Position numbers and translations under genes: made by a program
The notes under the pieces: generated by a model
What the model was told of the DNA's origin: nothing
Databases searched by the model: none
What the model saw: only the letters and a program-made list of their open reading frames with translations
Part shown: positions 28,587 to 64,000 of the stretch, one piece after another
How the letters are laid out: each line of letters begins with the position of its first letter
Position numbering within the stretch: position 1 is the stretch's first letter
Assembly (NCBI GenBank): GCA_947473305.1
Contig: CANJCB010000004.1
Span: 1-64,000 of the forward strand
Reading direction: 5' to 3'
DNA length: 64,000 bases
Origin: Rhodospirillales bacterium
Lineage (GTDB): Bacteria; Pseudomonadota; Alphaproteobacteria; ATCC43930; CGMCC-115725

Positions 28587-30161
28587 ATGAAGGGTGTGGA
28601 CCGCGCGGCCCTGGCGGCCGCGTTGATGACCATCGCATCGCTGGCCAATGCCGCCGATCCGCAGCGCGGCGGCACCGCTATCTATGTCCAGGCCCAGGAT
28701 CCGCCGGGGGTCAATCCGGATATCATCTCAGGCCTCCCCAACCGCTTCGCCGGCTGCACGATCTTCGAGGGGTTGGTCAATGTCTCCCAGACTTACGAGA
28801 TCGTCCCGGCGCTCGCCAGATCCTGGAGCATCTCGCCGGACCAGCTGACCTATAGCTTCGAGCTGACGCCGACCGAATTCCACGACGGCAAGCCGGTCAC
28901 ATCCCAGGATGTGAAATATACCCTTCAGGAGGTTTCGACCAAATATTCGGCTGTCTTCCTGCCGGCGGGCAAGATTATCGACACGATCGAAACGCCTGTG
29001 CCGGACAAGGTGGTCATCAAGCTGAAGCAACCCTTCGGGCCTTTCCTGATGTCTCTTGCCTGCAACCAGGGCTCGGCCATCCTGCCGTCGCATCAGTTCA
29101 AGGGCTCGGACCCCCTCACCAATCCCGGCAATACCACCAACCCTATCGGGACCGGCGCCTTCAAGCTCCAGGAATGGAAGCGCGGCGACTACATCAAGTT
29201 CACGCGCAACACGAAATATCACGAGCCGGGGAAACCCTATCTCGACGCGGTCATCGGCAAGACCATCCCGCAGACCGCTTCCGCCCTGCAGGCTCTGTTG
29301 GCGGGTGAGGTCGACATCATCCAATCCTTCCCGCCCGGCAACAAGGCGGCGGTCGAAGCCAATCCCAAGCTCAAGGTCATGGAAAGCGACCAGCCGGCGG
29401 TAACGACCTTCATCATGGTCAATATCGACCGCAAGCCCTTCGGCGACAGGCGGGTCCGTCAGGCGCTCTACCGGGCGATCGACCGCGACTACCTGATGAA
29501 GAACGCCTTCTTCAATGTGGGCAAGGTCTCGTCTCAGCCCTTTCCCTCGAATATTTCCTGGGCGATAGACCCCGCGCTCGATCTCCGGAAGATGTATCCC
29601 TTCGACATCGCCAAGGCGAACGAGGAGTTCGACGCGGCGGGCGTCAAGCGCGGCCCGGACGGCAAGCGTCTTTCGGCGCGTCTCGTGATCTATGCCCATG
29701 AGTATCCGGAGTTCCTGCCCGCCGCCACGGCGATCAAAAGCGTCTGGCAGCAATTGGGCATCGACCTCACGATCGACCAGCTCGAAACCGCGACCATCAT
29801 CGAGAAGGTCTTCAAGGAGCGCGACTTCGACCTTGTCATGCTGACCTACAACAGCTTCGCCGATCCGGTCTTCGGGATCGCCCGCGAATATGTGGGACCC
29901 TCGGTCGGCAAGGCCTTCGGCAATGCGACAGGCTACGCCAATCCCGTGGTCGACGATCTCTTCGAGAAAGGCGAGCGGGCCACGTCGCCCGAGGAACGCG
30001 GCAAGTTCTACAAGGAGGCCCAGGCGATCCTGGCGCTGGACAACCCGAGCCTCAAGCTGCGCGAATACAAGAACCTCGACGCCGCGACCAAGCGGCTCGA
30101 GGGCTTCGCGGGGAATCTCATGGGCAATGGACGCTGGGCCGACGCCTGGCTTTCCAACTGA
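28587..30161 (+). CDS. ABC transporter substrate-binding protein, family 5 (copy 1)
   Basis: A 524-residue exported protein; the signal peptide ends about residue 22 (ASLANA-AD). The family 5 (peptide/nickel/opine-type) fold shows in QRGGTAIYVQAQDPPGVNPDI, IFEGLVNVSQTYEIVPALARSW, FHDGKPVTSQDVKYTL, NPIGTGAFKLQEWKRGDYIKFTRN (in part) and DRRVRQALYRAIDRDYL. Closely resembles the copies at 42802, 49133 and 63807. No permease or ATPase gene is nearby. It is followed after 28 bases by the UbiD-like gene, so it may deliver that enzyme's substrate. Confidence 0.9.
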   Translation: MKGVDRAALAAALMTIASLANAADPQRGGTAIYVQAQDPPGVNPDIISGLPNRFAGCTIFEGLVNVSQTYEIVPALARSWSISPDQLTYSFELTPTEFHDGKPVTSQDVKYTLQEVSTKYSAVFLPAGKIIDTIETPVPDKVVIKLKQPFGPFLMSLACNQGSAILPSHQFKGSDPLTNPGNTTNPIGTGAFKLQEWKRGDYIKFTRNTKYHEPGKPYLDAVIGKTIPQTASALQALLAGEVDIIQSFPPGNKAAVEANPKLKVMESDQPAVTTFIMVNIDRKPFGDRRVRQALYRAIDRDYLMKNAFFNVGKVSSQPFPSNISWAIDPALDLRKMYPFDIAKANEEFDAAGVKRGPDGKRLSARLVIYAHEYPEFLPAATAIKSVWQQLGIDLTIDQLETATIIEKVFKERDFDLVMLTYNSFADPVFGIAREYVGPSVGKAFGNATGYANPVVDDLFEKGERATSPEERGKFYKEAQAILALDNPSLKLREYKNLDAATKRLEGFAGNLMGNGRWADAWLSN

Positions 30162-32433: not shown

Positions 32434-33225
32434 CTATCCCTTGGGCGAGAAGAACCTCACCAAGCGCTTCCAATCGGCCACATCTGTCGGATCGGCGGGT
32501 TTCGGCTTGATGACCGGGATACAGATCCCGAGATAGGGCGCGAGTTGCGGGGCGATCTCTTCGCGCGTCATGGCGGCGATGCCGATAAAATGCGGGTCGC
32601 CCATCGTGGCCTGATGCTTCACCTGAACCGGATTGCTGCGATAGCGGGTCAGTTCGTCGGCGATGATATCCGCCGCATTGGGACCCTGAGCCACGCGGTG
32701 ATAGAGATAAAGCGCCGGCATCGGACGCCCTGCCTCGCGAGCGCCCGCGGCGATCTGCTCGGTCGCCCAGCCCACCCGCTCCGGCGTCATCCAGTTGATG
32801 TTCACCACATCGGCGATGGCGCCGGAGAGCGCCAGCACCTTGGGTCCGTAACCGCCGATCCCGACACGCGACTTGGGCGAGGCCTTGCGCAGCGCCTCGA
32901 TCCCCCTCCGGTCGAGATCCAGGATGCCCGTCGTCGCCCGGCCCGAGGAAATGCAAAAAATGAAGCGCGGATCGGAAAGCCCCGCCGCCGCCACATCCTC
33001 CGCCACCTCGTCGGGCGTGTAGCGGTCGAGCGGGAAGACCCCAACGCCGATCTCGAACTTGGTCCGCCCGGCGGCGGCGGCCACGAGGCCTACCGGATCC
33101 TGGTCCCGGCGATTCACATTGATCCAGAAATTGTCGTAGCCGCAATCCTCGGCCAGGGCCGCGAGATCCGCGACCGCCTCCCGGCCCAATTCACCACTGA
33201 CACCAACGCCGCGCCGTTCCGTCAT
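32434..33225 (-). CDS. Luciferase-like flavin-dependent oxidoreductase (tandem copy 1)
   Basis: A 263-residue LLM-class protein, paralogue of its downstream neighbour. Its sequence begins [21 protein letters not shown] and carries [40 protein letters not shown] and [19 protein letters not shown]. Its start overlaps the 3' end of the 1211-residue oxoprolinase-like gene by four bases (ATGA), so the three are one operon. Two enzymes may form a heterodimer as in classical luciferases or act separately. RutA of pyrimidine breakdown is of the same superfamily, but the length and context differ. Confidence 0.82.
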
Positions 33226-36200
33226 TTAGCTCTCCCATATCCGCCGCCACCCGGCGTTTCGATCACGAAGACATCGCCGACCTTAACATCGATCGACCAG
33301 GTTCCCCCGAATTCCTCTCGGCTGCCGTCGGTGCGTTCCACCCAATTGCGCGCCAGAGCCGCCGGCTCTCCGCCCTCCAGCCCATAGGGCGCGATCCGTC
33401 GGTGTCCCGACAGGATGGAGGCGGTCATGGCTTCCAGGAACCGCAGGCGCCGCGTCGCCCCGTCTCCTCCCTTATGCGCCCCTTTTCCTCCCGATCCGCG
33501 CCGGATGGCGAAGCTCTCCAGCAAGACCGGGAAGCGCCATTCCAACACCTCGGGATCGGTGAGGCGCGAGTTGGTCATATGGGTCTGAACCGCATCGGTC
33601 CCGTCGAAATCGGGGCCTGCGCCGGAGCCGCCGCAGACCGTCTCGTAATATTGGTGGCGCTCGTTCCCGAAGGTGAAGTTGTTCATGGTGCCCTGCGCCG
33701 CCGCCATGACGCCCAAGGCTCCATAGAGCGCGTCGGTGATGTATTGCGAGGTCTCCACATTTCCGGCCACCACGGCGGCGGGATAGTGGGGCCGCAGCAT
33801 GGAGCCTTCCGGGATGACGATGTCCAGGGGCTTCAGGCAGCCGCCGTTCATCGGGATATCGTCGTCGACGAGGGTGCGGAAGACATAGAGCACGGCCGCG
33901 CGACAGACCGCCGAGGGCGCGTTGAAATTATTCGGAAGCTGGGCGTCGGTGCCGGTGAAATCGATCACGGCGCGGCGGGCCTCCTGGTCGATGGAGATGG
34001 CGACCTTGACCACGGCCCCGTTGTCCATCTCGTAGGCGAAGCTGCCGTCCTTCAGCACGCCCAGCACGCGGCGCACGGCCTCCTCGGCATTGTCCTGGAC
34101 ATGGCCCATATAGGCCTCGACCACATCGAGCCCGAAATGGCGGACCATGCGGTGCAACTCCTGGACGCCCTTCTCGCAGGCCGCGATCTGGGCTTTCAGG
34201 TCCGCGATGTTCTGGGAGGTATTGCGCGACGGATATTTCCCCGAGCGCAGAAGGTCCACCATCTCCGCCTCGCGGAAATGGCCTTCGTCCACCAGCAGGA
34301 AATTGTCGATCAGCACGCCCTCTTCCTCGACGGTGCGGCTGGTCGGCGGCATGGAGCCGGGGGTGATGCCGCCGATATCCGCATGATGACCGCGCGAGGC
34401 GACATAGAAGAGGACGGCGCCTTCTCCCTTCACATCTTCCTCGGCGAAGACGGGCGTGATGACCGTGACGTCCGGCAGATGGGTTCCGCCGTTATAGGGC
34501 GCGTTCAGAACATAGACATCGCCGCGCTTCATGCCTCTTCCGTCCGCCTCGCCGGCTCTCGCACGGATCACCGCCTGGACGCTCTCGCCCATGGAACCCA
34601 GATGCACGGGCATATGCGGCGCATTGGCGATCAACGCGCCCTCCCGGTCGAAAAGCGCGCAGGAAAAATCGAGCCGTTCCTTGATGTTTACGGAGTAGGC
34701 GGTGTTCTGCAGCGCTACGCCCATCTGCTCGGCGACCGCCATGAAGAGGTTGTTGAAAACCTCCAGCATGACAGGATCGACGGTGGTTCCGATGGCGACT
34801 TCGGCGGAGCGGGGAACGACCCGCTCCAGCACCAGATAGCGCCGCTGGTCGAGGGATGCCTGCCAGCCCATCTCGACGATGGTCGTTCCGGTCTGCTCGG
34901 AGATGATGGCAGGGCCGGACACGGTCTGGCCGGGCGTCAGCCGATCCCGGTCGAAAACGGGGACGGCTCTCAACTCGCCCTCCGAAACCATTTCCACAGT
35001 CGCGAGACGGCGCGGCGCGCGAGGGTCGGCGGGCACGACTTCGACCTCGTCGTCGATCGCCCCGGCGCTACCAATGACCTCTACCGCCACAGCCTCGACG
35101 ACAACCGGCTTGCTGTCCATGACGAAGCCGTAGCGCTGGCGATGAGCGGTCGCGAAGCCTTCCCGGATCCCAGCCTCATCGCCGTAATCCACAATCAAGG
35201 CTTTGTCCGTGCCTTCGTATTTCACATGCACCTTGCGCAACACCGAGATGCGGTCGGCCGAAACTCCCTGGCTTTTCATCTCTTCGGCGCCCTGGGCGGA
35301 AAGCCTCTCAAGCATGAGATCGAGATCGGGCAGGATATCCGCGGCGAGGCGCTTCTCCACCGAAGCCTCCTTCAGGCTCCTGAGATCGGCGAGGCCCATG
35401 CCATAGGCCGACAGAACCCCTGAGAAGGGATGCACATAGGCCCGCGTCATGCCCAGGGAATCGGCCACGAGGCAGGCATGCTGCCCCCCCGCCCCGCCGA
35501 AGCAGCAGAGCGTATACTCGGTCACGTCGTAGCCGCGCTGGATCGAGATCTGCTTGATGGCATTGGCCATGTTCTCGACCGCGATCCGGACGAAGCCCTC
35601 GGCCACCTGCTGCGGCGTGCGCTGGGTGCCCGTCGCATCGGCGATGCGGAAAGCAAGCTCGGTGAACTTCCTTTCCACCACCATGCGATCCAGGGGCTCA
35701 TCCCCCCCAGGACCAAAGACACTGGGGAAGAACTCGGGTCGGATCTTGCCCAGCATGACATTGCAGTCGGTGACCGTGAGCGGCCCGCCGCGTCGGTAGC
35801 AGGCAGGACCGGGATTGGCCCCGGCGGATTCCGGTCCCACCCGGAAGCGCGCGCCATCGAAGAAGCAGATCGACCCGCCGCCCGCCGCGACCGTGTTGAT
35901 ATGCATCATCGGGACCCGCATCCGCACGCCGGCGACCACGGTCTCGAAGGTCCGCTCGTATTCGCCGGCGTAGTGGGACACATCCGTCGAGGTGCCGCCC
36001 ATGTCGAAGCCGATGATCTTCGGGAATCCGCCCATCTCCGCGGTGCGCGCGGCGCCGACGATGCCGGCGGCGGGGCCTGAGAGGATCGCGTCCTTGCCCT
36101 GGAAGCGATGCGCGTCGGTGAGGCCCCCGTTCGACTGCATGAAGAAGAGCCGCGTGCCGCCCAATTCGTCCGCCACCTGGGCCACATAGCGGCGCAGCAG

Positions 36201-36857
36201 GGGCGAGAGATAGGCGTCCACCACGGTGGTGTCGCCCCGGCTCACGAGCTTCATGAGCGGGCTCACCTCGTGGCTCGCCGAGACCTGGGTGAAGCCGATC
36301 TCCCGCGCCAGCGCCGCGAGCTTCTTCTCGTGGTCCGGGTAGCGATAGGCATGCATCAGGAGGATCGCCACCGACCGGATGCCCGACTGATAAGCCGCTT
36401 CAAGGCCCATGCGGGCGGCATCGAGATCGAGCGGCGTCAGAACCTGCCCCTGCGCGTCGAGGCGTTCCTTGACCTCGACCACTTGCTCATAGAGCTGTTC
36501 CGGCAATTGGATATGGCGCGTGAAGAGCTTGGGCCGGTTCTGGTAGCCGATACGCAGCGCGTCGGCGAAGCCTTCGGTCACCACCAGCAGCGTCCGCTCG
36601 CCCTTGCGCTCCAGAAGCGCGTTGGTGGCGACCGTCGTTCCCATCTTGACCGCCTCTATGGCGTCGCCGGGAATGGGATCGCCGTCCTGGAGCTTCAGGA
36701 GATCGCGGATCCCCCGGATCGCGGCGTCCCGATACCGTTCGGGATTGTCGGAGAGCAGCTTATGGGTCGCGAGGCTGCCATCGGGGCGCCGCGCGACGAT
36801 ATCGGTAAAAGTACCGCCTCTATCGATCCAGAACTGCCATTTACCGGGGATATGCAT
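33222..36857 (-). CDS. Fused hydantoinase/oxoprolinase (HyuA-HyuB), 5-oxoprolinase-like
   Basis: A 1211-residue protein that joins an N-terminal HyuA ATP-binding half ([66 protein letters not shown]) to a C-terminal HyuB half from about residue 690 ([48 protein letters not shown], and a glycine-rich C terminus). This is the layout of ATP-dependent 5-oxoprolinase, which opens pyroglutamate to glutamate. N-methylhydantoinases and acetophenone carboxylases share the fold, so the substrate is open. Operon partners are two flavin oxidoreductases. Confidence 0.9.
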
Positions 36858-36956
36858 ACACTCGCCTGACGTTACAACCGGGACTGGCCCCGACCCTCAA
36901 CATATAGCGGGCTCGCGCTTTTCGATCACGTCTCTTGTCATGGGAACGGGCCACAC

Positions 36957-36968
36957 ATTGTTGACAAT
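36957..36968. promoter_or_regulatory. Palindrome ATTGTTGACAAT, likely GntR-type operator
   Basis: ATTGT and ACAAT arms flank TG, a 12-bp palindrome 50 bases before the oxygenase gene at 37018. It contains TTGACA (36961-36966), so a bound regulator would cover a -35 element; the -10 is weak (GACGAT at 36984). The GT-N2-AC core with T and A flanks fits operators of FCD-type GntR regulators. One such gene converges on this region (38063-38752). Confidence 0.5.
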
Positions 36969-37017
36969 CAATCGCCCGGCGGGGACGATCATTCCAACGG
37001 CAATCAAGGTGCACAGC

Positions 37018-38058
37018 ATGGACGGCTCGGACGAACTCCACCTGATGGAACACCCCGATTCGACGGAGGAAATTCCCGTCCTCGATGTCGGCCCCTTCCT
37101 GCGTGGCGAGGCTGGCGCGCGGGAGCGGATCGGGGCTGAACTCAGGGCGATTTCGGAGACGGTCGGTTTCTTCTATCTCGAGGGCCATGGGGTCCCGCAG
37201 GACAAGATCGACGGGATCTTAGCTGCCTCCAAGCGGCTCCACGAACTGCCTCTCGAGCAACGCCGCCGGATCGAACGGACGGACCGGGTGGGCTATCGCG
37301 CCGCCGAGGACCGCGAGGGGCTGGGCGGGATGGAGCCGATCCTGATGTCGTCTTTCGTCACGCTTCGGGAGCGCCCCCCAGGCGATGCCCGCACGATATC
37401 GAGCGATCCCTTCCGCATGGGCAACCATTGGCCGCAAGAACTGCCGGGATTTCGCGAGCAGGCCGTCGATTATTACCGGACCGTGGAACAGGTGCATTTC
37501 AACCTGCTCCCGCTTTGGGAAACGGCGCTCGATCTGCCGGACGGTTATCTTAACCGCTTCTTCCGCGATCCCTATGTGGCGCTGTCGCTGCTGCATTACC
37601 CGCCCCAGGGCGAGGTGGAGCAGCTTGGCCTTCAGCCGCACACCGACAGCGGCTTCGTCAGCATCCTGGCCCAGGGCGAGGTGCCCGGGCTCATCGTGCG
37701 AATGCCTTCGGGGCGCTGGCGGATCGCGGATGTCCGGCGTGGGGCCTTCATGGTCAATACCGGCAATATCATGGTGCGGCTGACCAACGGGCGGTTTCTC
37801 TCCACCAAGCACGGCGTCATCAACAACGGCGGGGTCGCGCGCTGCTCGGTGCCGCTTTTCGTCGGCCCCGACCTCGACGCCATGATCGAGGTCTTGCCGA
37901 CCTGCCAGGGTCCTGACAATCCGGCGAAATACCCGCCGATCCGCTATGAGGACTATTATCGCTGGTTCTATTACGGCGGCGGCGTCAACGAAAAGGCCGT
38001 CGGCCCCGACGTAAAATCGGAAGGCCGCTGGGTCCCCGAACGCGCCATGGGCGAATAG
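37018..38058 (+). CDS. Isopenicillin N synthase-like 2OG-Fe(II) oxygenase (second paralogue)
   Basis: A 346-residue non-haem iron oxygenase related to the one at 20306. Iron ligands are His208 and Asp210 (QPHTDSGFVSI) and His265 (STKHGVINN); Arg275 and Ser277 (ARCSVPLF) bind the co-substrate carboxylate in this family. The start PDSTEEIPVLDVGPFLRG and the end VLPTCQGPDNPAKYPPIRYEDYYRW are near those of the first paralogue. The ATG at 37018 follows a likely operator. The gene stands opposite the six-gene GntR operon, its stop 4 bases from the regulator's stop, so coregulation with that operon is plausible. Confidence 0.86.
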   Translation: MDGSDELHLMEHPDSTEEIPVLDVGPFLRGEAGARERIGAELRAISETVGFFYLEGHGVPQDKIDGILAASKRLHELPLEQRRRIERTDRVGYRAAEDREGLGGMEPILMSSFVTLRERPPGDARTISSDPFRMGNHWPQELPGFREQAVDYYRTVEQVHFNLLPLWETALDLPDGYLNRFFRDPYVALSLLHYPPQGEVEQLGLQPHTDSGFVSILAQGEVPGLIVRMPSGRWRIADVRRGAFMVNTGNIMVRLTNGRFLSTKHGVINNGGVARCSVPLFVGPDLDAMIEVLPTCQGPDNPAKYPPIRYEDYYRWFYYGGGVNEKAVGPDVKSEGRWVPERAMGE

Positions 38059-38062
38059 TGCG

Positions 38063-38752
38063 TTAGGCCACGACCGGAACGGTCTCGTTCAGCAGCGGCA
38101 GCAGGCGGGCCTGGCCGCGCATCACATGCTCGCGCAGCATGCGGCTGGCCTTTTCGGGATCGCCGCTTGCCAGCGCCTCGACCATCTCGCTGTGCTCTTC
38201 GTTGGAGACCAGGATCCCGCCGCCCTGGAAGAGACTGCGGCGGCGCATCAGATGCATCTCGTTCATCAGACGCCGGTAGATCTCCAGGAGCTTCGTATTG
38301 CCCGTCATCTCCACGATGCGGTCGTGGAAGCGGATGTTGCGCGGGAAATAGCCGTCCGGATCGTTGCGGGAGGAGGCGGTGTCCATCTCCTTGATGAACT
38401 CCCTGAGTTCCGCGACCTGTTCCGCCGTGATGCGCGGCGCCAGGATACGTCCCACCATCTCGTCGAGACCGGCGCGGACCTCATAGAGTTCGGTGGCCTG
38501 CTCCCGGTCCATCTGCCGGACGAAGACACCACGATTGCGCGTCAGGCGCAAAAGCCCCGCTTCTTCCAGTGCCCGGAAGGCTTCGCGGACGGGTCCCCGG
38601 CTCACCTGGAGCCGGGCGGCGAGGTCCGCCTCGGTCAGCTTGTCGCCCGGCCCCACCTCGCCTTCGAGGATGAGGCGCATGATTTCGGCCTGTACCGCCT
38701 TGGGCAGCGATTCGGACCGCAGGATCTGAAGAAGCGAACGTTCGGTATCCAT
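38063..38752 (-). CDS. GntR family regulator, FCD type
   Basis: A 229-residue regulator: N-terminal winged helix (LPKAVQAEIMRLILEGEVGPGDKLTEADLAARLQVSRGPVREAFRALEEAGLL, in part, near 16-68) and a C-terminal all-helical FCD ligand domain with DxxxH-type metal ligands (RFHDRIVEMTGN, HSEMVEAL, REHVMRGQARLL). FCD regulators of this type bind small organic acids. It is the last gene of the SBP-to-regulator operon and probably controls it by feedback from a pathway intermediate. A GGAGAGAT ribosome site precedes the ATG. Confidence 0.93.
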   Translation of the reverse strand: MDTERSLLQILRSESLPKAVQAEIMRLILEGEVGPGDKLTEADLAARLQVSRGPVREAFRALEEAGLLRLTRNRGVFVRQMDREQATELYEVRAGLDEMVGRILAPRITAEQVAELREFIKEMDTASSRNDPDGYFPRNIRFHDRIVEMTGNTKLLEIYRRLMNEMHLMRRRSLFQGGGILVSNEEHSEMVEALASGDPEKASRMLREHVMRGQARLLPLLNETVPVVA

Positions 38753-38763
38753 GTATCTCTCCT

Positions 38764-39801
38764 TCAGGCCGCGCGGAGCGCCTGCTCGAGCTTGACGAGC
38801 TCGGGCGGGTCCACAAGTGCGCCGTTGCGCACGATCTGGCGGCCGTCGATGGAAATGGAATGATTGGTCACGACGCCATCCGGATGGTTCTCCCCGCCGC
38901 CCGGCTGCCACCACGGAATGCCGAAGCCGATGGCGTTGTTCCCGGCGACGCGGATGTTCTCGTTGAAGGAGCGGCCGTCGAACTGAGCCGCCGGATGGAA
39001 ACCGTGGGAGAAGTGAATGATCTTGCCGAATTGGCCTCCCGCGGCGCGGCGCAGCGATTCCTCCATGAGGCGAAGGTCGGAACCCCCGCCGGTAACTTCG
39101 CGGATCTGGCCGTCCACTTTGAACGTCATAGGCGTCTTCAACAGGGTGAAATACTTGTGGAAGGCGGCATGAGTGACCACGACGCCTTTCACGGAATCGA
39201 CCTCGGGATAGATGACCGCGGACCCGGGCGGCGTGAAGGTGCCCGGCCGGTCGGTATGGCGCAGCTTCTTGGTCGCCATCTTGCCGATGGTGAAGCGCAC
39301 GTCGGTGCCGCTGGTGTCGGTGATATGGCACTCCTTGCCCACCGCCCCGCCGATCAGCTCGTCAAGCGCGTTCTGCAAATCGAAAAGCCGGTCGAAATTC
39401 ACCTCGGCGAAGAGCCGCGAGATGCCGCCCGCGCCCAGATCCAAGAGGTTGAGCGACCGGGTCCGGTTCTTCTTCATGGCTTCCGAATGAGCCTTGGAGC
39501 CGCTCATATAGGGGAAGGTCATGTCGATCCAGACATCGCAGCTCATGCCGGCCGCGATGGCGACTTCCGGGATATAGGGATCGGAGAGCGAGCCCTGATA
39601 GGGAAGCTGCGGGATCGTCACCACGGAAGGGATCGCCTTCTGCACGCGCGCCGCCTCGAAGAGGGCCCAGACGCCACGGGGATCCGTGGCGGCGTCGGCG
39701 GTGATGAGAACCTGCTCACCCGCCTTCACGCACATATAGTCTCGGATGATGAGATCAGCGGCTACCGCCAGCACCGATGCATCGACCGAATTCTTCATCA
39801 T
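38764..39801 (-). CDS. M29-family metalloprotein, aminopeptidase or NicX (2,5-dihydroxypyridine dioxygenase)-like
   Basis: A 345-residue protein of the M29/leucyl-aminopeptidase T fold. It begins MMKNSVDASVLAVAADLIIRDYM and has the C-terminal metal-site region: GHGFHPAAQFDGRSFNENIR, GFGIPWWQPGGGENHPDGVVTNHSISIDG, with NHSISIDG aligning to the paired His and Asp ligands. The same fold houses NicX, the iron dioxygenase that opens 2,5-dihydroxypyridine. Because the adjacent upstream gene is an FAD ring hydroxylase and two hydrolases follow, a ring-cleaving role is more likely than peptidase, but this is inference. The start ATG at 39801 (or 39798) leaves the upstream gene untouched. Confidence 0.65.
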   Translation of the reverse strand: MMKNSVDASVLAVAADLIIRDYMCVKAGEQVLITADAATDPRGVWALFEAARVQKAIPSVVTIPQLPYQGSLSDPYIPEVAIAAGMSCDVWIDMTFPYMSGSKAHSEAMKKNRTRSLNLLDLGAGGISRLFAEVNFDRLFDLQNALDELIGGAVGKECHITDTSGTDVRFTIGKMATKKLRHTDRPGTFTPPGSAVIYPEVDSVKGVVVTHAAFHKYFTLLKTPMTFKVDGQIREVTGGGSDLRLMEESLRRAAGGQFGKIIHFSHGFHPAAQFDGRSFNENIRVAGNNAIGFGIPWWQPGGGENHPDGVVTNHSISIDGRQIVRNGALVDPPELVKLEQALRAA

Positions 39802-39815
39802 CTCCCAAAGCTCCT

Positions 39816-41009
39816 TCAGACGGCCACTGTGGTGGCGTCGTATCCATAGATCCAATCGTACCACTCGACGACCTTATCGGGCGACCACTGGCTTTCGATG
39901 TAACGCGCAGCGGTCACGGGATCGGCCAAGTCCTTGGCGTGCCTGCGGCTGGCTTGCTCCATCGACTTCTTGACGATCTGGGTGCAGCGCGGCCGTCGCG
40001 CTTCTTCGTAATGCGAAAGCGCCGACTCGGCATCCTCATATGCCTCCAGCGCCCGGGCAAGGATCAAGCCATCCTCGATCGCCATATTGGCCCCTTGGCC
40101 CAGTGTCGGCCGGGTGGAATGGCAGGCATCGCCCAGCAGGGCGACGCGGCCCTTCGCCCATTGCTGAAGCGGGTCGCGGACGAAGACGCCCCATTTGAAG
40201 GGCGTCCCGAGGCCCTGGATCAACCTCTGGATATCTTCGTGCCAGCCGGTGAAGTCGCGCGCGCATTCCTCGATGGTGCCGGGCACGATCCAGCTTTCGA
40301 CGCGCCAGTCCTCGCGCTCGATATTACCGATGAAATTCAAAAGCTCGCCGCGCCGGACGGGGTATAGCGTGATGCTGCCGGTGGTGCTGATCCAATTGGC
40401 GGCGGAGGTGCGGAACCGTTCAGGCACCTGATCCATGGGTACAAGGCCGCGCCAGGCGATATAACCGGTGAATTTCGGCTCGGCAGGCCCGAAAAGCTGC
40501 TTCTGGATTACCGAATGTATGCCATCCGCGCCGATCAGGATGTCGCCCCGGACCGTCCCCCCATCCTCGAAGCTCACGGTCACGCCGCTGCCGTCATCGG
40601 TGAAGCCCGTGCAGGTCCGCGCCACATGAATGGCACCGGGTTTCCGCTGACGCACCCCATCCACCAGCATCGCATGAAGATCGCCGCGATGAAGGCAGAG
40701 ATAGGGCGAACCGAAACGTGCCTCGGCCTGGGAATTATGGTTCGGAATTTCCCAGGTCTGGCCGGAGTCCCAGAGGCAGAGATAGCGCGCATCAGGCTGC
40801 ACGCCGTCGCGCAGATAGCGCTCGGCAAGGCCCAGTTCACGCAGCACGCGGGAACCGTTTGGGCTGACATGCAGACCCGCGCCCACTTCCTTCAACTCGG
40901 GCGAGCGTTCGTAGACATCGACATCGAAACCGCGATCGAGCAGTGCCAGGGCGGCCGTCAGCCCGCCGATCCCCGCACCGATAACGATCACATGGGGTTT
41001 TTTCGCCAT
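39816..41009 (-). CDS. FAD-dependent aromatic monooxygenase
   Basis: A 397-residue class A flavoprotein hydroxylase. The FAD dinucleotide motif is VIVIGAGIGGLTAALAL near residue 8, the DG motif is DILIGADGIHSVI near 160, and the GD motif LLGDACHSTRPTLGQGANMAIEDG is near 285-305. Sequence features are those of salicylate 1-, 3-hydroxybenzoate 6- and 6-hydroxynicotinate 3-hydroxylases (NicC). It would use NAD(P)H to hydroxylate an aromatic acid, possibly with loss of carboxylate. Next to an M29/NicX-like gene this suggests a pyridine-type substrate, though benzenoids fit as well. Confidence 0.87.
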   Translation of the reverse strand: MAKKPHVIVIGAGIGGLTAALALLDRGFDVDVYERSPELKEVGAGLHVSPNGSRVLRELGLAERYLRDGVQPDARYLCLWDSGQTWEIPNHNSQAEARFGSPYLCLHRGDLHAMLVDGVRQRKPGAIHVARTCTGFTDDGSGVTVSFEDGGTVRGDILIGADGIHSVIQKQLFGPAEPKFTGYIAWRGLVPMDQVPERFRTSAANWISTTGSITLYPVRRGELLNFIGNIEREDWRVESWIVPGTIEECARDFTGWHEDIQRLIQGLGTPFKWGVFVRDPLQQWAKGRVALLGDACHSTRPTLGQGANMAIEDGLILARALEAYEDAESALSHYEEARRPRCTQIVKKSMEQASRRHAKDLADPVTAARYIESQWSPDKVVEWYDWIYGYDATTVAV

Positions 41010-41010
41010 A

Positions 41011-41892
41011 TCAGGTTTCGAGCGCCCGGACGAAGCCGCCCACCGCCGCGTCGAAGGCGGGCGGCTGCTCACGGAAGGGCATGGAGCCCGCTTGGTTCAG
41101 GATGCGGATCTGGGTCAGGGGCTGCTTCGCCGAGACGATCTGGAAGAGCGAAATCGCGAAGGGCACCGGCGACAACGGGTCCTGGTGGCCCCAGACCATG
41201 AGCGTCGGCACCGACACGCCCGTCTCGCGGAACCGGACGTAATTATTGGCCTTGAGCTTCGCCAGGGACGCCCGCACCTGGGCGCCGAGCTTGCCCTCGG
41301 TGAGTTTCGCCCGCACCGCGCGGAAGGTCTCGCCCCGGGCGGTCTCGGCGGCCTCCTCCATCCAGCGTCCAGCCCGCAGATGATGGTCGGTGTAGGAGGT
41401 CCTGGAGAGAAGCCAGCGCTGGCTTTCCGCGCCATAGATCGGATGAGGGCGACCCATCAGCGCGAAGTTGATATCCGCGTCTCCGGCAGGTGCTATGGCG
41501 GGGCTCGCCACGATGGTCAGGGAGGCAACCCGCTCCGGCGCCTCAAAAGCGAGACGCAAAGCGATCATGGCGCCTTCGTCGTGGCCGACGAGATGGGCCT
41601 TCTTGACTTCCGTCGCATCGAGGAAGCCGCGCGCATGCCGGACCAGCCCGTCGTAGGAATAATCGGCATCTTCCTTCGGCGCTTCGCTCTGGCCCTGGCC
41701 CGGTGCGTCGTAGGCCAGCACGCGGGCGCTCTGGGCGAGGCCGGCGATATTATGCTCCCAGACCGTGGCCGAGGGGCAGTAGCCCGGATCGGTCAGCGCG
41801 CCGCCATGGATCAGCACGAGGGTCGCCGGGCCGGAACCCTCCTCGACATAGCGGGTCTTGACGCCGGAGACGGTGACGAATTTGTCGGACAT
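41011..41892 (-). CDS. Alpha/beta hydrolase fold protein with an altered triad
   Basis: A 293-residue alpha/beta hydrolase. The oxyanion region is LIHGGALTDPG, but the nucleophile elbow reads LVGHDEGAMIA with Asp105 where most members have Ser. Epoxide hydrolases and dehalogenases also use Asp. The usual general-base His near the C terminus is Ser270 (NQAGSMPFREQP), whereas the neighbouring paralogue has His. The acid WGHQDPLSP is kept. Without His the normal hydrolytic mechanism would not work, so another base or a non-hydrolytic role is likely. The start is ATG at 41892; a TTG at 41910 overlaps the previous gene. Confidence 0.85.
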   Translation of the reverse strand: MSDKFVTVSGVKTRYVEEGSGPATLVLIHGGALTDPGYCPSATVWEHNIAGLAQSARVLAYDAPGQGQSEAPKEDADYSYDGLVRHARGFLDATEVKKAHLVGHDEGAMIALRLAFEAPERVASLTIVASPAIAPAGDADINFALMGRPHPIYGAESQRWLLSRTSYTDHHLRAGRWMEEAAETARGETFRAVRAKLTEGKLGAQVRASLAKLKANNYVRFRETGVSVPTLMVWGHQDPLSPVPFAISLFQIVSAKQPLTQIRILNQAGSMPFREQPPAFDAAVGGFVRALET

Positions 41893-41906
41893 GACGCGCG
41901 CTCCGG

Positions 41907-42788
41907 TCAATTCAGGCTGCCGATGAAACCGGTCATCAGCTCGTTGAACTGCTCCGGATGCTCGCGGTAGGGGTGATGGCCGGCGGCGGCGACCACATGG
42001 AAATAGGCCTGGCGTTCGTGGGCGGCGATGGTCCGGTAGAGCATCAGGCCACGTTCGATCGAGGAGGAATGATCCTCCGCCCCCCAGATCACCTGGGTGG
42101 GCCTGAGCGAGCCCGCGTCGGCGATCCTTTGCAGGGTCTCGTGCTTCACCTTCGCAAGATCGGGGCGGAAGAGGCTGTTCTTGAGCCCGCCCTTTTCCAT
42201 GAGTTCCGAGCTTTCGCGATATTTCGGCTGCGACATGACCTCGAAGCCCGCCTCGACGAAATTTTCGCTGACGCTGGAAAGGTCATAGGCGCAGCGTTCG
42301 AAAAGCCAGCGCTGCCCCTCGCGACTGAATGCGGGATGCGGACAGCCCGCGTAATTGACCTCGTTGAGGCTGACGCCGGGCGCGAGGCTGCTGCTGTTGA
42401 TGACAGTCAGGGACCTTACCCGTTCCGGCACCAGATGAGGCAGCGCCGCCGCCGGCAAGGCCCCGGCCGACTGCCCCACCACATGGGTGCCTTCCAGGTT
42501 CATCACCCGCATGAAGGCGACCAGATGGCGGTGGACAGCCTCCTGGGTGTAGTCGCCGTTCCTGGGGTTTTCGGTGTGGCCGTGGCCGAGCTTGTCGACC
42601 ACGATCACCCGGTAGCGCTGCGACAGCGGCCCGATGTTGTATTCCCAGGTCTCCGCGGGCGAGGCCGCCACGGTATTCCCGTAGTGACTGCCCGTGATGA
42701 AGAGGATCGGCTCCCCTTTTCCCGCCTCGAAATAGCGGGTGCGGATGCCGTCCACATCGACCCAGCTCGGCGCGACCGCCATCGCCAT
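41907..42788 (-). CDS. Alpha/beta hydrolase, canonical Ser-His-Asp triad
   Basis: A 293-residue alpha/beta hydrolase with the usual triad: Ser107 in VVGQSAGALPAA, acid in WGAEDHSSS and His271 in AAAGHHPYREHPEQF. The helical cap lies at about 130-215. Such enzymes open C-C or amide/ester bonds in aromatic breakdown (MhpC, BphD, NicD types). NicD deformylates N-formylmaleamate in the nicotinate pathway, so a matching step is conceivable here. The start ATG at 42788 is 13 bases after the binding-protein stop; another ATG lies two codons later. Confidence 0.88.
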   Translation of the reverse strand: MAMAVAPSWVDVDGIRTRYFEAGKGEPILFITGSHYGNTVAASPAETWEYNIGPLSQRYRVIVVDKLGHGHTENPRNGDYTQEAVHRHLVAFMRVMNLEGTHVVGQSAGALPAAALPHLVPERVRSLTVINSSSLAPGVSLNEVNYAGCPHPAFSREGQRWLFERCAYDLSSVSENFVEAGFEVMSQPKYRESSELMEKGGLKNSLFRPDLAKVKHETLQRIADAGSLRPTQVIWGAEDHSSSIERGLMLYRTIAAHERQAYFHVVAAAGHHPYREHPEQFNELMTGFIGSLN

Positions 42789-42801
42789 CTGATGAATGCT
42801 C

Positions 42802-44385
42802 CTATTGCGCGAGATAGGCGTCGACCCAGTGGCCCTGCCCCTGGATGATTCCCCAGAGGCCCTTGAGCCGCACGCTGGCCGCGTCGTTGTTGCGATATTG
42901 CCGGAGCGTCAGCGCCGGCAGGTCCGAGGCCAGGATCGACTGGACCTGGCGATAATATTGGCCACGGCCTTCGGTCGTGACCGCGCCCTGGGCCTTGTCG
43001 AAGAGGGCATCGACCTCGGGGTTCGAATATTGGGTCGCATTGCCATAGGGCTTGGCGATCGAGGAAGTCACGAAAACGCGCGCGATGCCCAGCGCCGGAT
43101 CGGAGAAGCTCGAATAGGGCGACAGCGTCCAGTCGAAGTCGTGGTCCACGAAGACCTGCTTCAGATAGGTCGCGGTCTCCAGGTTCGACAGCTGCAGGTC
43201 GACCCCAACCGCCTGCCACATGCTCTTCAGCGCCGGCGCCACGAGCTGGTACTCAGGATATTCGTGACCGTAGTTCAACATGCGGAAGGTCGCCCGCTTG
43301 CCGTCCGCGCCCCGCTTCAGCCCCGCCTCGTCGAGCAGCGCATTGGCCTTGGCGACATCGAAGGGATACATCTTGTTGTAGTCGATCTCCGGGTTCGCGG
43401 CCCAGGAGATGTCAGGGGCAAAGGGCATGACGGCGACAGCGCCCTGGTTGAAGAAGGCGTTCTTCATCAGATAGTCGCGGTCGGTCGCCATGAACATCGC
43501 CTGGCGCACCCGCTTGTCGTCCAAGGGCTTGTTCTTGTTGTTGGGCATCAGGAAGACGGTATTCGGCGGCACGTCCCCGGTCTCGATCTTGAGCTTGGGA
43601 TTGGCGCGAACCGCCGCGAAATCGCTCGGCTGCAGCAGCGGCACCATATCAACCTCGCCCGCCTGGAGCGCCTGCAAGGCAGCTGAGGCCTGGGTGATCG
43701 TCTTCGTCGTGATCCCGTCGAGATAGGGTTTGCCCGGTTCCCAATATTTGTCGCTCTTCACGAGCCGCATCGTGTCGCCACGCTTCCACTCGACGAGCTT
43801 GAAGGCGCCGGTTCCGATAGGCCCCTCCATATTGGCGGGATTCTGCGGGATATTGGTCCCGCGAAACTGCGCCGGCTGAAGGATCGCCGCACCCTGGGAG
43901 CAGGTCATCGACACCAGGAAGGGCGCAAAGGGCTTCTTGAGCTTGATCACCACCTTGTCAGGCGCCGGGGCCTCGACGCTGTCGAGTTCGCGGCCGGCGG
44001 GTGCGAAGGTCGGGGAGAATTTGGCGCTGACCTCCGTCAGGGAATATTTCACGTCCTCGGCCGTCACCGGCGAGCCATCCTGGAAGCTCGTCTTGTTGAG
44101 CTCGAAACTATAGGTCAGCCCGTCCGGCGACACGGTCCAGGACTTGGCGATCAAGGGCTTGATCGAATAGTCCGCCGCGACCTCGACGAGGCCCTGATAG
44201 ATCATGCAGCCCAGCAGATGATTGATGTAACCCGAGGTGATGTTGGGGTTAACATGGGGCGGGTCCTGCGCTAGCACCACGATGGCCGTGCCACCCTTTT
44301 GCGGCGTCTGGGCTTGAGCGAGCGGCGCCGCGAGGCACAAAGCGGCGGCGAGGCTTGCAAAAACCTCGGTACGGCGCATCCACAT
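42802..44385 (-). CDS. ABC transporter substrate-binding protein, family 5 (copy 2)
   Basis: A 527-residue exported protein, signal peptide to about residue 25 (LAAPLAQAQ). Family 5 traits are KGGTAIVVLAQDPPHVNPNIT, YQGLVEVAADYSIKPLIAKSW, FQDGSPVTAEDVKYSL, GPIGTGAFKLVEWKRGDTM and DDKRVRQAMFMATDRDYL. It is the first gene of the operon that includes hydrolases, monooxygenase, NicX-like enzyme and GntR regulator, with 13 bases to the next gene, so it very likely captures the operon's substrate. A GGGGGG-type ribosome site precedes the ATG. Confidence 0.91.
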   Translation of the reverse strand: MWMRRTEVFASLAAALCLAAPLAQAQTPQKGGTAIVVLAQDPPHVNPNITSGYINHLLGCMIYQGLVEVAADYSIKPLIAKSWTVSPDGLTYSFELNKTSFQDGSPVTAEDVKYSLTEVSAKFSPTFAPAGRELDSVEAPAPDKVVIKLKKPFAPFLVSMTCSQGAAILQPAQFRGTNIPQNPANMEGPIGTGAFKLVEWKRGDTMRLVKSDKYWEPGKPYLDGITTKTITQASAALQALQAGEVDMVPLLQPSDFAAVRANPKLKIETGDVPPNTVFLMPNNKNKPLDDKRVRQAMFMATDRDYLMKNAFFNQGAVAVMPFAPDISWAANPEIDYNKMYPFDVAKANALLDEAGLKRGADGKRATFRMLNYGHEYPEYQLVAPALKSMWQAVGVDLQLSNLETATYLKQVFVDHDFDWTLSPYSSFSDPALGIARVFVTSSIAKPYGNATQYSNPEVDALFDKAQGAVTTEGRGQYYRQVQSILASDLPALTLRQYRNNDAASVRLKGLWGIIQGQGHWVDAYLAQ

Positions 44386-44508: not shown

Positions 44509-45471
44509 TCAGGCCAGCTTATTAAGCGGGTTCAGCACTTTGCCCTGGAGGAAAGCGCGGATGTCCTCGACCGCCACGGCATAGGCCTGGAGATAGTTCT
44601 CCTCGGTGACATAACCGAGGTGCGGGGTCACCAGCGCATTGTCCAGCGCCAGGAAAGGATGATGCGCGGGCAGCGGCTCCTGGTCGAAGACATCGAGCGC
44701 CGCCCCGGCGATGCGGCGTTCGCGCAGGGCCTGGAGCAGCGCCTTCTCGTCGATGATCGGGCCGCGCGAGGTGTTTACCAGCCAGGCGCTATGCTTCATG
44801 CCCCGAAGCTCGGCGTCGCCGACGAGGCTTTCCGTCCGCTCGCTCAATTGCATATGGATCGTCAAGACATCGGAACGCGCGAAAAGCTCGGCCTTTTCCA
44901 CCCGGGTGACGCCCTGCTCCGCCGCGCGCTCGGCTGTCAGGTTCTGGCTCCAGGCGATGACCTCCATGCCGAAAGCCAAACCCACCTTTGCAACCTGCGC
45001 GCCCAGACGGCCCAAGCCCAGCACGCCGAGCGTCTTGCCCAGAAGCCCCGTACCCAGTGTCGTTTGCCAGCGACCTTCATGGGTCGCCTTGATCTCGGCC
45101 GGGATATGACGGAAGGCCGACAGGATCAGACCCCAGGTAAGCTCCGCCGTGGGATAGGGCAGTGTCGGCGTGCCGCAGACCTGCACCTTGTGATGCGTCG
45201 CCGCATCGAGATCGATGGAGGCGTTGCGATGGCCCGTGGTGACGATTAGCTTCAAATGGGGAAGTTTCGGGAAAATCGCGGCCGGAAAGGGAGTTCGTTC
45301 CCGCATCAGCACCACCGCATCGAAGGGCCGAAGCCGCGCGGCGACGGCATCCATGCTGTCGAGATGATCCGGAAAGGCTACGACCTCGACCTCGGGCTCC
45401 AGGCCGCGCCAATTGGCCATGCGGAGCGCCACACGCTGGTAATCGTCGAGAATCGCGACTCTTATTGCCAA
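44509..45471 (-). CDS. D-isomer specific 2-hydroxyacid dehydrogenase
   Basis: A 320-residue NAD-dependent enzyme. The Rossmann domain has LGVLGLGRLGAQVAKVGLAFGM, and the catalytic residues are Arg in VNTSRGPIIDEKAL, Glu in DVFDQEPLPAHHP and His in TPHLGYVTEENY. The start is TTG at 45471, with GGGAG 8 bases upstream; no ATG is available. It would reduce a 2-keto acid or oxidise a D-2-hydroxy acid. It is followed on the minus strand, after about 120 bases, by the SBP-GntR operon; it may feed or drain the same pathway, but this is only suggested by position. Confidence 0.88.
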   Translation of the reverse strand: MAIRVAILDDYQRVALRMANWRGLEPEVEVVAFPDHLDSMDAVAARLRPFDAVVLMRERTPFPAAIFPKLPHLKLIVTTGHRNASIDLDAATHHKVQVCGTPTLPYPTAELTWGLILSAFRHIPAEIKATHEGRWQTTLGTGLLGKTLGVLGLGRLGAQVAKVGLAFGMEVIAWSQNLTAERAAEQGVTRVEKAELFARSDVLTIHMQLSERTESLVGDAELRGMKHSAWLVNTSRGPIIDEKALLQALRERRIAGAALDVFDQEPLPAHHPFLALDNALVTPHLGYVTEENYLQAYAVAVEDIRAFLQGKVLNPLNKLA

Positions 45472-49043: not shown

Positions 49044-49132
49044 CGCTCCGGTTGCGTCGCCCCCGTAATTAAAGTTCACTACCCCAAGCGCATATCCTTC
49101 GCGCAACAAAAAGCGAAACGGGAGGGGTGAGG

Positions 49133-50725
49133 ATGGGATCGAAGAAGCTCGGAATGGCGGCCGCCTTCGTGGCAGGCGCTCTCTGTCTGACAGCAACGGC
49201 CAATGCCCAGGACGCCGGCAAGCCCGTGAAGGGTGGCAGCCTCATCCTCGCCATCGGCGTCGATCCGCCGACCGTCAATCCCGCCATCACCTCGGGCATC
49301 CCGGACAAGCAGGTCGGCTGCCTCATCTATGAAGGCATGATGCAAGCGACGGCCGATGGACGGCCGATGCCACTGCTGGCGAAGTCCTGGACCATCTCGC
49401 CGGACGGCAAGACCTATTCCTTCAAGCTCAATCAGGCGAAGTGGCACGACGGCAAGCCCTTCACCTCCGAGGATGTCGCTTATTCCATCAAGGAGGTGAG
49501 CGCCAAATATGCCGCCGTCATCGCGACGGCCGTGCGGCTCATCGACCGGATCGAGACACCGGCCTCCGACGAGGTCAAGATCATCCTGAAGGAGCCTTTC
49601 GGCCCCTTCCTCATCTCCTGGTCCTGCGGAGAGGGCGGCGTCGTCCTGCCCGCCCATATCTTCCGGGGCACGGATGTGCCGGCCAATCCCGCGACCTCCG
49701 CCACGCCGGTCGGAACGGGCGCCTATAAGATCGGGGAATGGAAACGGGGGAACTACATCCGGCTCGTCCGCAATCCCGATTACTGGGACCCGAACAAGCC
49801 CTATCTCGATGAGATCGTCGTCCGCATCATGCCCGAAAGCACCACCCGGATGCAGGCGCTCCAGGCGGGCGAGATCGACTATCTTCCCGGCAATTACTTC
49901 GCGACCAACGACCGCGCGGCGGTGGCCGCCAATCCGAAGCTCAAGACCGCGCTCTCAGGCTTCCCGCCCGCCAGCTATCACCTCTTCTACAACATCACGC
50001 GCAAACCGATGGACGATGTAAGGGTCCGCCGCGCCCTCGCCATGGGGCTCGACCGGGACTATCTCGTGAAGAACGTCTGGTTCGGCGACGGGATGCCGGG
50101 GAGGATGCCCTTCACCCAGGTGATGAAATGGGCCGCCGATCCCAATGTCGATTACAACAAGATGTATCCCTACGACCCTGCCAAGGCGAACGCGCTGCTG
50201 GATGAAGCCGGCTTGAAGAAGGGCGCCGATGGCACCCGTTTCACCCTGCGCCTTTCCTATTCGAACGACGCCGCCGAGCGGAACCAGGCCGCCGCCGCGA
50301 TAAAGAGCATGTGGCGCGCGATCGGGGTCGAGACCACGATCGATTCGAACGACCGCGCGACCGACCAGAAGAAGGTCTTCCTCGACCGGGATTTCGACGT
50401 GACCATCGAGAATTACACGAGCTACGGCGACCCGGCCCTGGGTATCGCGCGTACTTTCGTGAGTTCCTCCGGCGGCAAGCTCTTCGGCAATCCCACCGGC
50501 TATGCGAATCCTGAGGTGGACGAGCTTTTCGTCAAGGGCGAGCAGGCGACGGATCAGGCCGCGCGCGGCGAATTCTACAAGAAGGCCCAGGCGATCCTGG
50601 CGCGCGACCTGCCGTCCCTCAATTTCCGCGATTACCAGACGGTCGATGCGGCTTCCGTCAAGCTGCAGGGCGCTTGGGAAGTCCTGGGGCCGGCCTCGCT
50701 TTTCGACGCCTGGCTCGCGAAATAA
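49133..50725 (+). CDS. ABC transporter substrate-binding protein, family 5 (copy 3)
   Basis: A 530-residue exported protein with signal peptide ending near TATANAQ. Family 5 segments: KGGSLILAIGVDPPTVNPAIT, YEGMMQATADGRPMPLLAKSW, WHDGKPFTSEDVAYSI, TPVGTGAYKIGEWKRGNYIRL and DDVRVRRALAMGLDRDYLVKN (in part). ATG at 49133 has GGAGGGG at 49121-49127; a GTG two codons earlier is less well placed. It follows the Lrp gene in the same direction. No transport partners are encoded nearby. Confidence 0.91.
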   Translation: MGSKKLGMAAAFVAGALCLTATANAQDAGKPVKGGSLILAIGVDPPTVNPAITSGIPDKQVGCLIYEGMMQATADGRPMPLLAKSWTISPDGKTYSFKLNQAKWHDGKPFTSEDVAYSIKEVSAKYAAVIATAVRLIDRIETPASDEVKIILKEPFGPFLISWSCGEGGVVLPAHIFRGTDVPANPATSATPVGTGAYKIGEWKRGNYIRLVRNPDYWDPNKPYLDEIVVRIMPESTTRMQALQAGEIDYLPGNYFATNDRAAVAANPKLKTALSGFPPASYHLFYNITRKPMDDVRVRRALAMGLDRDYLVKNVWFGDGMPGRMPFTQVMKWAADPNVDYNKMYPYDPAKANALLDEAGLKKGADGTRFTLRLSYSNDAAERNQAAAAIKSMWRAIGVETTIDSNDRATDQKKVFLDRDFDVTIENYTSYGDPALGIARTFVSSSGGKLFGNPTGYANPEVDELFVKGEQATDQAARGEFYKKAQAILARDLPSLNFRDYQTVDAASVKLQGAWEVLGPASLFDAWLAK

Positions 50726-63806: not shown

Positions 63807-64000
63807 ATGGCGCGTATCGCAATCTATGCGGCTTTCGGAGTTGCCCTTCTGACGGTGCTCGGAACGGCGCAAGCGCAGGAACCGAGACGCGGCGGGACCG
63901 TGATCACCACGGTCCAGGCCGATCCCAATGTGATCAATCCGGCGATCTCCACCTCGCCGCCGGACGGGATCACCGGCTGCATGGTCTATGAGGCGCTGAC
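63807..64000 (+). CDS. ABC transporter substrate-binding protein, family 5 (copy 4, N-terminal part)
   Basis: The first 64 codons are seen before the window ends. The signal peptide MARIAIYAAFGVALLTVLG ends near TAQAQ, and EPRRGGTVITTVQADPNVINPAIS and GITGCMVYEALT match the family 5 binding proteins at 28587, 42802 and 49133. The ATG at 63807 has AGGAAGG ten bases upstream. The gene continues beyond the right edge and lies 34 bases after RidA in the same direction. Confidence 0.88.
   Translation, partial: MARIAIYAAFGVALLTVLGTAQAQEPRRGGTVITTVQADPNVINPAISTSPPDGITGCMVYEAL

Follow-up and report, generated by a model that had tools for sequence, protein, structure and literature searches.

A six-gene operon of a Rhodospirillales bacterium encoding a NicX-related protein, a candidate ring-cleaving dioxygenase

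The first 64,000 nucleotides of contig CANJCB010000004.1 of a Rhodospirillales bacterium (GenBank assembly GCA_947473305.1), hereafter called the window, contain at positions 38063-44385 six closely packed genes, and these raise the question of which compound their products break down and how. A sequence-only reading of the window had proposed that they import an aromatic N-heterocycle, hydroxylate it, open its ring and hydrolyse the product, the ring being opened by a "M29/NicX-like" protein that we call M29L. Our analyses partly support this proposal, which was right in outline and needs correction on three points: M29L belongs to a family of its own, one of the two hydrolases has a degenerate active site, and the binding protein has many paralogues. 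We consider it rather likely that the operon serves to import a small compound, probably an N-heteroaromatic one, to hydroxylate it and to open its ring. A wider proposal, on which we are evenly divided, is that M29L represents a family of Fe(II)-dependent ring-cleaving dioxygenases not described before and derived, like NicX, from the aminopeptidase fold, with a metal-binding triad devoid of the serine ligand, fed by Rieske, FAD or molybdenum hydroxylases and opening N-heteroaromatic compounds other than 2,5-dihydroxypyridine.

The operon and its NicX-related protein

The minus strand carries all six genes, which are listed here from the first to the last of the operon.

42802-44385, minus strand: substrate-binding protein (SBP) of the SBP_bac_5 family, 527 residues, first gene of the operon (Pfam E 4e-84; paralogue search in its own genome)
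41907-42788, minus strand: alpha/beta hydrolase 1 (ABH1), 293 residues, with Ser107 (GQSAG) and His271 (AGHHP) (Pfam Abhydrolase_1, PDB matches, residues)
41011-41892, minus strand: alpha/beta hydrolase-fold paralogue 2 (ABH2), 293 residues, with Asp105 (GHDEG) and Ser270 (AGSMP) (Pfam Abhydrolase_1, residues)
39816-41009, minus strand: FAD-dependent aromatic hydroxylase, 397 residues (Pfam FAD_binding_3, PDB matches)
38764-39801, minus strand: M29L, NicX-related putative Fe(II) ring-cleaving dioxygenase, 345 residues, with His263, His306 and Asp308 (profile, fold, residues)
38063-38752, minus strand: GntR/FadR-type regulator, 229 residues (Pfam GntR and FCD; NCBIfam TIGR03338)

As the sequence-only reading had described, the genes are co-directional and separated by 1 to 14 bases (13, 14, 1, 14 and 11). 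The gene upstream, coding for a D-2-hydroxyacid dehydrogenase (44509-45471), lies 123 bases from the SBP gene, and the gene that follows the regulator (36940-38058) runs in the opposite direction. Such tight spacing is unremarkable by itself, as 20 of the 57 neighbouring gene pairs obtained from script-based gene calls in the window are on the same strand with a gap of 20 bases or less. A scan for promoters and terminators found signals no commoner than in shuffled sequence. It is the recurrence of the same kinds of gene beside M29L in other genomes that exceeds chance, not the gene spacing.

Pfam signatures assign five of the six proteins (SBP_bac_5, Abhydrolase_1 twice, FAD_binding_3, and GntR with FCD). 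The sixth, M29L, queried alone corresponds to no Pfam or NCBIfam family at E<=10, and its one match in the PDB, a glutamate-cysteine ligase at E 1.5, was taken as chance; its label therefore rests on profile, fold and residue evidence. This lack of a family match is a weaker point than it appears, because a close NicX encoded on contig C57 of the same genome (L034) is equally devoid of Pfam (E<=1e-5) and NCBIfam (E<=1e-10) matches.

A profile built from 12 relatives of M29L retrieved the NicX structure of Pseudomonas putida (7cn3) with an E value of 6e-9, the sole further PDB match at E<=10 being a chain of a DnaJ homologue (E 1.3), and a comparison of alignments matched M29L to three NicX-type or intermediate proteins with 99.4% probability. 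We computed an AlphaFold2 model of M29L (pLDDT 85.1, pTM 0.81), in which pLDDT falls below 50 at residues 1-3, 276-279 and 282-287. Using Foldseek, the model matched NicX with TM scores of 0.70-0.72 (E 1.4e-19 to 5.2e-19) and M29 aminopeptidases with TM scores of 0.58-0.62; using VIA-align, it was superimposed on NicX over 322 residues with a Z score of 27.7 and an rmsd of 3.9, as against Z scores of about 20 for M29 peptidases. The Pfam Peptidase_M29 signature (PF02073) matched neither M29L nor any other protein of its genome in a search whose control was positive in 4 of 14 genomes. By sequence profile and predicted fold, M29L is thus nearer to NicX than to M29 peptidases; its sequence identity with NicX is 19-20%.

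The metal site provides more specific evidence. The iron ligands of NicX are His265, Ser302, His318 and Asp320, and their alanine mutants are inactive (PMC7910607). The equivalents of His265, His318 and Asp320 are His, His and Asp in all 84 M29L proteins and in all 21 proteins of the NicX group; the 84 include the window copy, in which they correspond to His263, His306 and Asp308, and were obtained from 87 distinct sequences by excluding three shorter than 315 residues. The triad remains invariant (74 of 74) when ten rows, some of them copies of others, are dropped. In the column of NicX His265, a relative scoring above the Pfam M29 cut-off (L221), for which a PDB search gave no match, and two annotated aminopeptidases harbour Glu; the HxD motif is present in L221 too.

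The metal ligands of the aminopeptidase AmpT are Glu250, Glu316, His345, His376 and Asp378. The Glu residue of the peptidase-type relatives appears to be AmpT Glu316, based on a weak alignment (E 0.71). In the stretch around AmpT Glu250, read by eye and linked to AmpT by the same weak alignment, L221 and the two aminopeptidases have Glu, NicX has Phe and the window protein Ser. M29L hence does not appear to carry all five peptidase ligands, a set that the sequence-only reading would have counted against its own proposal: it has His in 84 of 84 sequences where peptidase-type relatives have Glu.

The residues that contact the substrate in NicX have a different fate. NicX His105 is replaced by Gly in all 84 M29L proteins, the column of Glu177 holds Lys or Arg in 61 of them, and no His is found among the residues listed for M29L in the column of His189. 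NicX Arg293 is not conserved either. M29L is therefore not a NicX: it retains the triad but neither Ser302 nor the residues that touch the substrate, and its mode of action is probably that of NicX with a different substrate.

Distribution and gene company of M29L

A scan of genomes with the single protein revealed no relative of M29L. An alignment-based scan, in which homologues were retrieved by two conserved motifs and divergent members are missed, yielded 96 relatives at no fewer than 79 distinct loci. With two plasmid loci and two loci of the window's own genome, 83 loci were examined; they include near-copies, and a threshold of <62% identity leaves 22 of 72 full-length M29L proteins (window, C41 and L048-L126). 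The family spans Alpha-, Beta- and Gammaproteobacteria, Acidimicrobiia and Binatia. Its members are annotated as hypothetical proteins in both plasmid records inspected, and we found no recognisable description of the family or of its pathway in open-licence papers. Four records of Cupriavidus plasmids contain a partial match to M29L, in two pieces covering 33% of the query at 56% identity with no annotated gene underneath, which is possibly a remnant.

The distribution is patchy. M29L was found in none of the 38 other genomes of the host's family, and homologues with at least 43% identity occur in 8 of 385 genomes of the class, its own included (as read from the table), which argues against plain vertical inheritance. 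In an unrooted tree of 55 proteins, a branch supported at 100/100 separates 27 M29L sequences from the rest, which includes all 21 sequences of the NicX group.

We surveyed the genes around the 83 loci using profile matches on open frames. The set of hydroxylase, M29L and hydrolase pointed out by the sequence-only reading recurs elsewhere, with Rieske, FAD or molybdenum hydroxylases. In 40 of 83 loci a co-directional Rieske oxygenase gene is found no more than 300 bases away, and 64 loci have a Rieske or FAD oxygenase gene within 5 kb. Xanthine dehydrogenase-type (molybdenum) hydroxylases are encoded within 5 kb in 23 loci; in 17 loci the gene for the FAD subunit of such an enzyme is co-directional with that of M29L and at most 300 bases away. 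Alpha/beta hydrolases and amidases are found within 3 kb in 20 and 11 loci, respectively, and racemase-family genes within 5 kb in 8.

A control within the 79 scan loci compared near and far genes. Rieske genes represent 46 of 442 genes within 3 kb but 7 of 469 genes beyond 5 kb, and molybdenum large subunits 21 of 442 versus 1 of 469, but no enrichment of this kind is seen for amidases (5 of 442 versus 4 of 469). Pfam analysis of 78 neighbour proteins from 21 of the 22 non-redundant loci (the window omitted) identified 13 Rieske proteins, 6 alpha/beta hydrolases and 5 molybdenum-hydroxylase FAD subunits.

Five of the 83 loci (L087, L089, L092, L094 and L104), from one cultured and four uncultured proteobacteria and including that of Pseudomaricurvus alkylphenolicus, encode a Rieske enzyme, M29L, a MetX-like alpha/beta hydrolase, an amidase and a racemase-family protein within 5 kb. 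Maps drawn from the longest open frames (no map is available for L111, and that of L057 is unreliable) show this very order in L092, L094 and L104, plus a Rieske ferredoxin gene; the gene distances in L089 equal those of these three loci, and in L087 the racemase-family gene comes first. A sixth candidate, L126, begins inside the M29L gene at a contig edge. The racemase-family proteins of the five loci match Pfam Amdase, with a weaker match to Asp_Glu_race. The nicotinate route proceeds through NicX, a deformylase, an amidase and maleate isomerase. The order of the Rieske-M29L genes recalls this succession, by which analogy the last three enzymes of these loci might have the corresponding jobs.

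Pairs with an FAD enzyme, as in the window, are also found elsewhere. On contig C41 of the same genome, paralogues of the window's FAD monooxygenase and M29L (57% and 63% identity, respectively) are encoded 22 bases apart, followed by genes for a TauD-type dioxygenase, a binding-protein paralogue and a molybdenum large subunit. The spacing between the FAD and M29L genes is about 50 bases in two Ralstonia loci (mapped for L048). The M29L proteins of the window, C41 and Ralstonia soli cluster in the tree, together with a Zavarzinia copy on a contig too short to show a partner, and this grouping hints at a possible single switch from a Rieske to an FAD partner. M29/NicX-like genes of two other genomes of the class (L218 and L219) adjoin a gene for a hydrolase of the ABH1/ABH2 family.

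Partner proteins and comparison with known pathways

The best PDB matches of the FAD monooxygenase are tropone 2-monooxygenase and 6-hydroxynicotinate 3-monooxygenase, and its NCBIfam match to a 3-hydroxybenzoate enzyme is far below the cut-off of the model. ABH1 corresponds best to monoethylhexylphthalate and monoalkylphthalate hydrolases, then to meta-cleavage-product hydrolases, and ABH2 likewise matches ester and meta-cleavage-product hydrolases. The two are paralogues with 32% identity. ABH1 keeps the Ser107 nucleophile and His271, whereas ABH2 has Asp105 and Ser270 at those positions. The operon thus contains two genes for alpha/beta hydrolase folds, as first noted, but two active hydrolases are doubtful: with Asp in place of the nucleophile and Ser in place of the catalytic His, ABH2 may not be hydrolytic.

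In a set of 24 related hydrolases drawn from 18 loci, 21 have Ser and 3 have Asp as the nucleophile; the His is present in 23, ABH2 being the exception. Apart from ABH2, the Asp type is represented by two copies, each the second gene of a tandem pair, on plasmids of Sagittula stellata and Ponticoccus alexandrii that closely resemble each other (L203 and L204, 8980-9891), next to genes for an ABC transporter and an M20/amidohydrolase; the binding protein of that transporter shares 25-26% identity with the window SBP. An Asp-type hydrolase partner therefore exists elsewhere yet is uncommon.

The window SBP has 98 matches in its own genome (4.70 Mb, 105 contigs). About 76 copies, its own included, have E values <1e-130, and the 75 paralogues are 41-60% identical to it (as read from the table); three SBP_bac_5 copies are found in the window itself (42802-44385, 28587-30161 and 49127-50725). 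A further paralogue, with one in-frame TAG codon (C4:63807-65372), overruns the end of the window, which contains its part at 63807-64000. By comparison, OppC_N-type permeases, the one permease type searched, gave 8 matches in the genome, 6 of them above the cut-off. At E<=1e-100 the SBP has no match in the 38 family relatives; 8 other genomes also gave no match at this threshold, in a search devoid of a positive control whose empty answer shows little. In the stretches that we fetched, 43 of 59 SBP genes belong to same-strand runs of two or more genes, and the commonest partner family is TauD (7 of 91 proteins).

These paralogues give the impression of a binding-protein expansion particular to this lineage and dispersed among catabolic operons. 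A comparable expansion, of 100 TctC proteins, is reported for Comamonas testosteroni CNB-2 (PMC9602780). With about 76 paralogues, the SBP therefore tells little about the ligand: the operon does have a binding-protein gene of its own, but the case for a dedicated importer is weakened.

The regulator scores 277.4 bits against NCBIfam TIGR03338, a phosphonate-associated model with a cut-off of 271.5. An automatic name based on this model would mislead, as there is no phosphonate gene among the six.

The same genome encodes a second, NicX-type pathway, to judge from its sequence. On contig C57 (L034, 5271-9314), a protein that matches the NicX structure of P. putida with a score of 532 bits is followed by an isochorismatase-fold (NicF-like) protein, an FAD monooxygenase and a MetX-like hydrolase, the last of which is 41% identical to the MetX-like hydrolase of the five-locus set. 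Because M29L has lost the NicX substrate contacts and a separate NicX exists on C57, a substrate other than 2,5-dihydroxypyridine is likely, in agreement with the earlier suggestion that the substrate differs from that of nic clusters.

Several known systems share parts with the operon. P. putida NicX (7cn3 and 7cup), a 2,5-dihydroxypyridine 5,6-dioxygenase that forms N-formylmaleamate, resembles M29L in its fold, its His-His-Asp triad and its accompaniment by an FAD hydroxylase and alpha/beta hydrolases; unlike NicX, however, M29L more often has Rieske and molybdenum hydroxylases as neighbours in other genomes. The nic cluster for nicotinate comprises NicC, NicX, NicD, NicF and NicE. It has the same logic of a hydroxylase, a NicX-fold enzyme and an alpha/beta hydrolase, to which amidase and racemase-family genes are added in some M29L operons. 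In contrast with nic, the window operon has two tandem hydrolases and a binding protein, lacks a NicF-like gene and does not keep the NicC residues (see below). M29 aminopeptidases (AmpT, AmpS and PepS) share their overall fold and the HxD motif with M29L, but not the His at the first triad position.

In Arthrobacter IN13, the kpi cluster for 4-hydroxypyridine has the same kinds of part as the window operon, namely a flavin monooxygenase, a ring-opening dioxygenase of a hydrolase family, an alpha/beta hydrolase and a FadR-type regulator (PMC7356986). It differs in that its ring-opening enzyme, KpiC, belongs to the amidohydrolase family and in that it encodes an extra fumarylacetoacetate hydrolase. 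The kpi pathway is a tested precedent for the combination of a flavin hydroxylase, a recruited ring-opening enzyme and an alpha/beta hydrolase. The auxin iad operon was rejected as a match: its Rieske enzyme is described as composed of alpha and beta subunits, and the term M29 is absent from the text.

Proposed route, alternatives and other genes of the window

We infer the following route. The SBP would present the substrate to a shared transporter, and the FAD monooxygenase would add a hydroxyl group to the ring. M29L, as a mononuclear Fe(II) enzyme with the NicX fold and a His-His-Asp site, would then insert O2 and cleave the ring. ABH1, with its Ser-His pair, would cut the open-chain product at a formyl amide or a C-C bond, with ABH2 as a diverged partner and the GntR protein as the putative regulator of the operon.

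Several observations weigh against this route. M29L forms a separate, long-branched clade, and some unstudied relatives annotated as aminopeptidases are found on its side of the unrooted tree rather than on that of NicX. The NicX ligand Ser302 is not kept: the position is Gly in 84 of 84 proteins in one alignment, Pro, Glu, Asp, Ala or Lys in an earlier one and a hydrophobic residue in the HMMER alignment, so that the alignment is locally uncertain there, with Ser in none of its versions. The weak segments of the model at 276-279 and 282-287 lie between the metal ligands. In the alignment with its PDB matches, the FAD monooxygenase has Gly, Leu and Thr opposite the functional NicC residues His211, Tyr215 and His302. 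No Rieske or FAD oxygenase is encoded within 5 kb in 19 of the 83 loci, some of which are on short contigs. Neither NicE nor NicF is encoded among the six genes, as the sequence-only reading had remarked, and a NicF-like gene was found within 5 kb in none of the 83 loci. In 6 of 83 loci an M20 gene is present within 5 kb, which would also suit peptide-like substrates, and so would binding-protein-dependent permeases near 11-12 of 71 loci, a count made by eye and not with Pfam after the gene caller had missed the M29L gene in 10 of 81 loci.

Some of these points would fit a metallohydrolase, acting on a lactam or an amide formed after ring hydroxylation and passing its product to the alpha/beta hydrolases. 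M29L shares the fold of M29 peptidases, has aminopeptidase-annotated relatives nearby in the tree, lacks Ser302 and is encoded near M20 amidohydrolases in the six loci just mentioned. We nevertheless find this unlikely, since the first triad residue is His as in NicX, and not Glu as in L221 and the two annotated aminopeptidases, NicX ranks first by profile and fold, and Peptidase_M29 gives no match, even though a His-His-Asp site could hold zinc. The same three observations led us to reject an M29 peptidase as first choice. The operon might instead encode a genuine pathway for a benzenoid compound: after hydroxylation, M29L would cleave a benzene diol, and hydrolases of the meta-cleavage-product type would act next. 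The PDB matches of both hydrolases would suit it, as would the resemblance of the FAD monooxygenase to the tropone enzyme and, far below cut-off, to a 3-hydroxybenzoate enzyme, and the loss from M29L of the NicX environment that binds the ring nitrogen (Glu177 and His189). Molybdenum hydroxylases, however, are typical of the attack on N-heterocycles and are encoded near M29L in 23 of 83 loci, and the hydrolase, amidase and racemase-family set of the five loci echoes the breakdown of an amide product; we regard a benzenoid substrate as improbable.

Far less probable still is an operon for peptides or phosphonates, for which a peptide-type SBP_bac_5 protein, a peptidase-like enzyme and a GntR protein above the TIGR03338 cut-off (277.4 versus 271.5 bits) could be invoked. 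M29L has neither the peptidase profile nor Glu at the first ligand position, the FAD monooxygenase would have no role there, and the SBP is one of about 76 paralogues; as the operon encodes no phosphonate enzyme, the phosphonate reading drawn from TIGR03338 was rejected.

To our knowledge, few ring-opening enzymes are known for N-heteroaromatic compounds. The NicX authors reported no obvious full-length structural homologues of their enzyme (PMC7910607). If our preferred reading of M29L as a ring-cleaving dioxygenase is correct, a second widespread NicX-like family would mark dozens of catabolic operons as yet unread, including some of uncultured Acidimicrobiia and Binatia, and M29L is an enzyme that can be tested directly.

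Two other regions of the window deserve mention. The gene at 57855-59261 codes for a single protein with two tandem isochorismatase domains; it adjoins an amidase gene and is next to genes for a Rieske oxygenase with its small subunit (60663-62383). At 33222-36857, the A and B halves of a hydantoinase are fused in a protein of 1211 residues, the nearest NCBIfam models of which are caprolactamase subunits, with scores far below their cut-offs.

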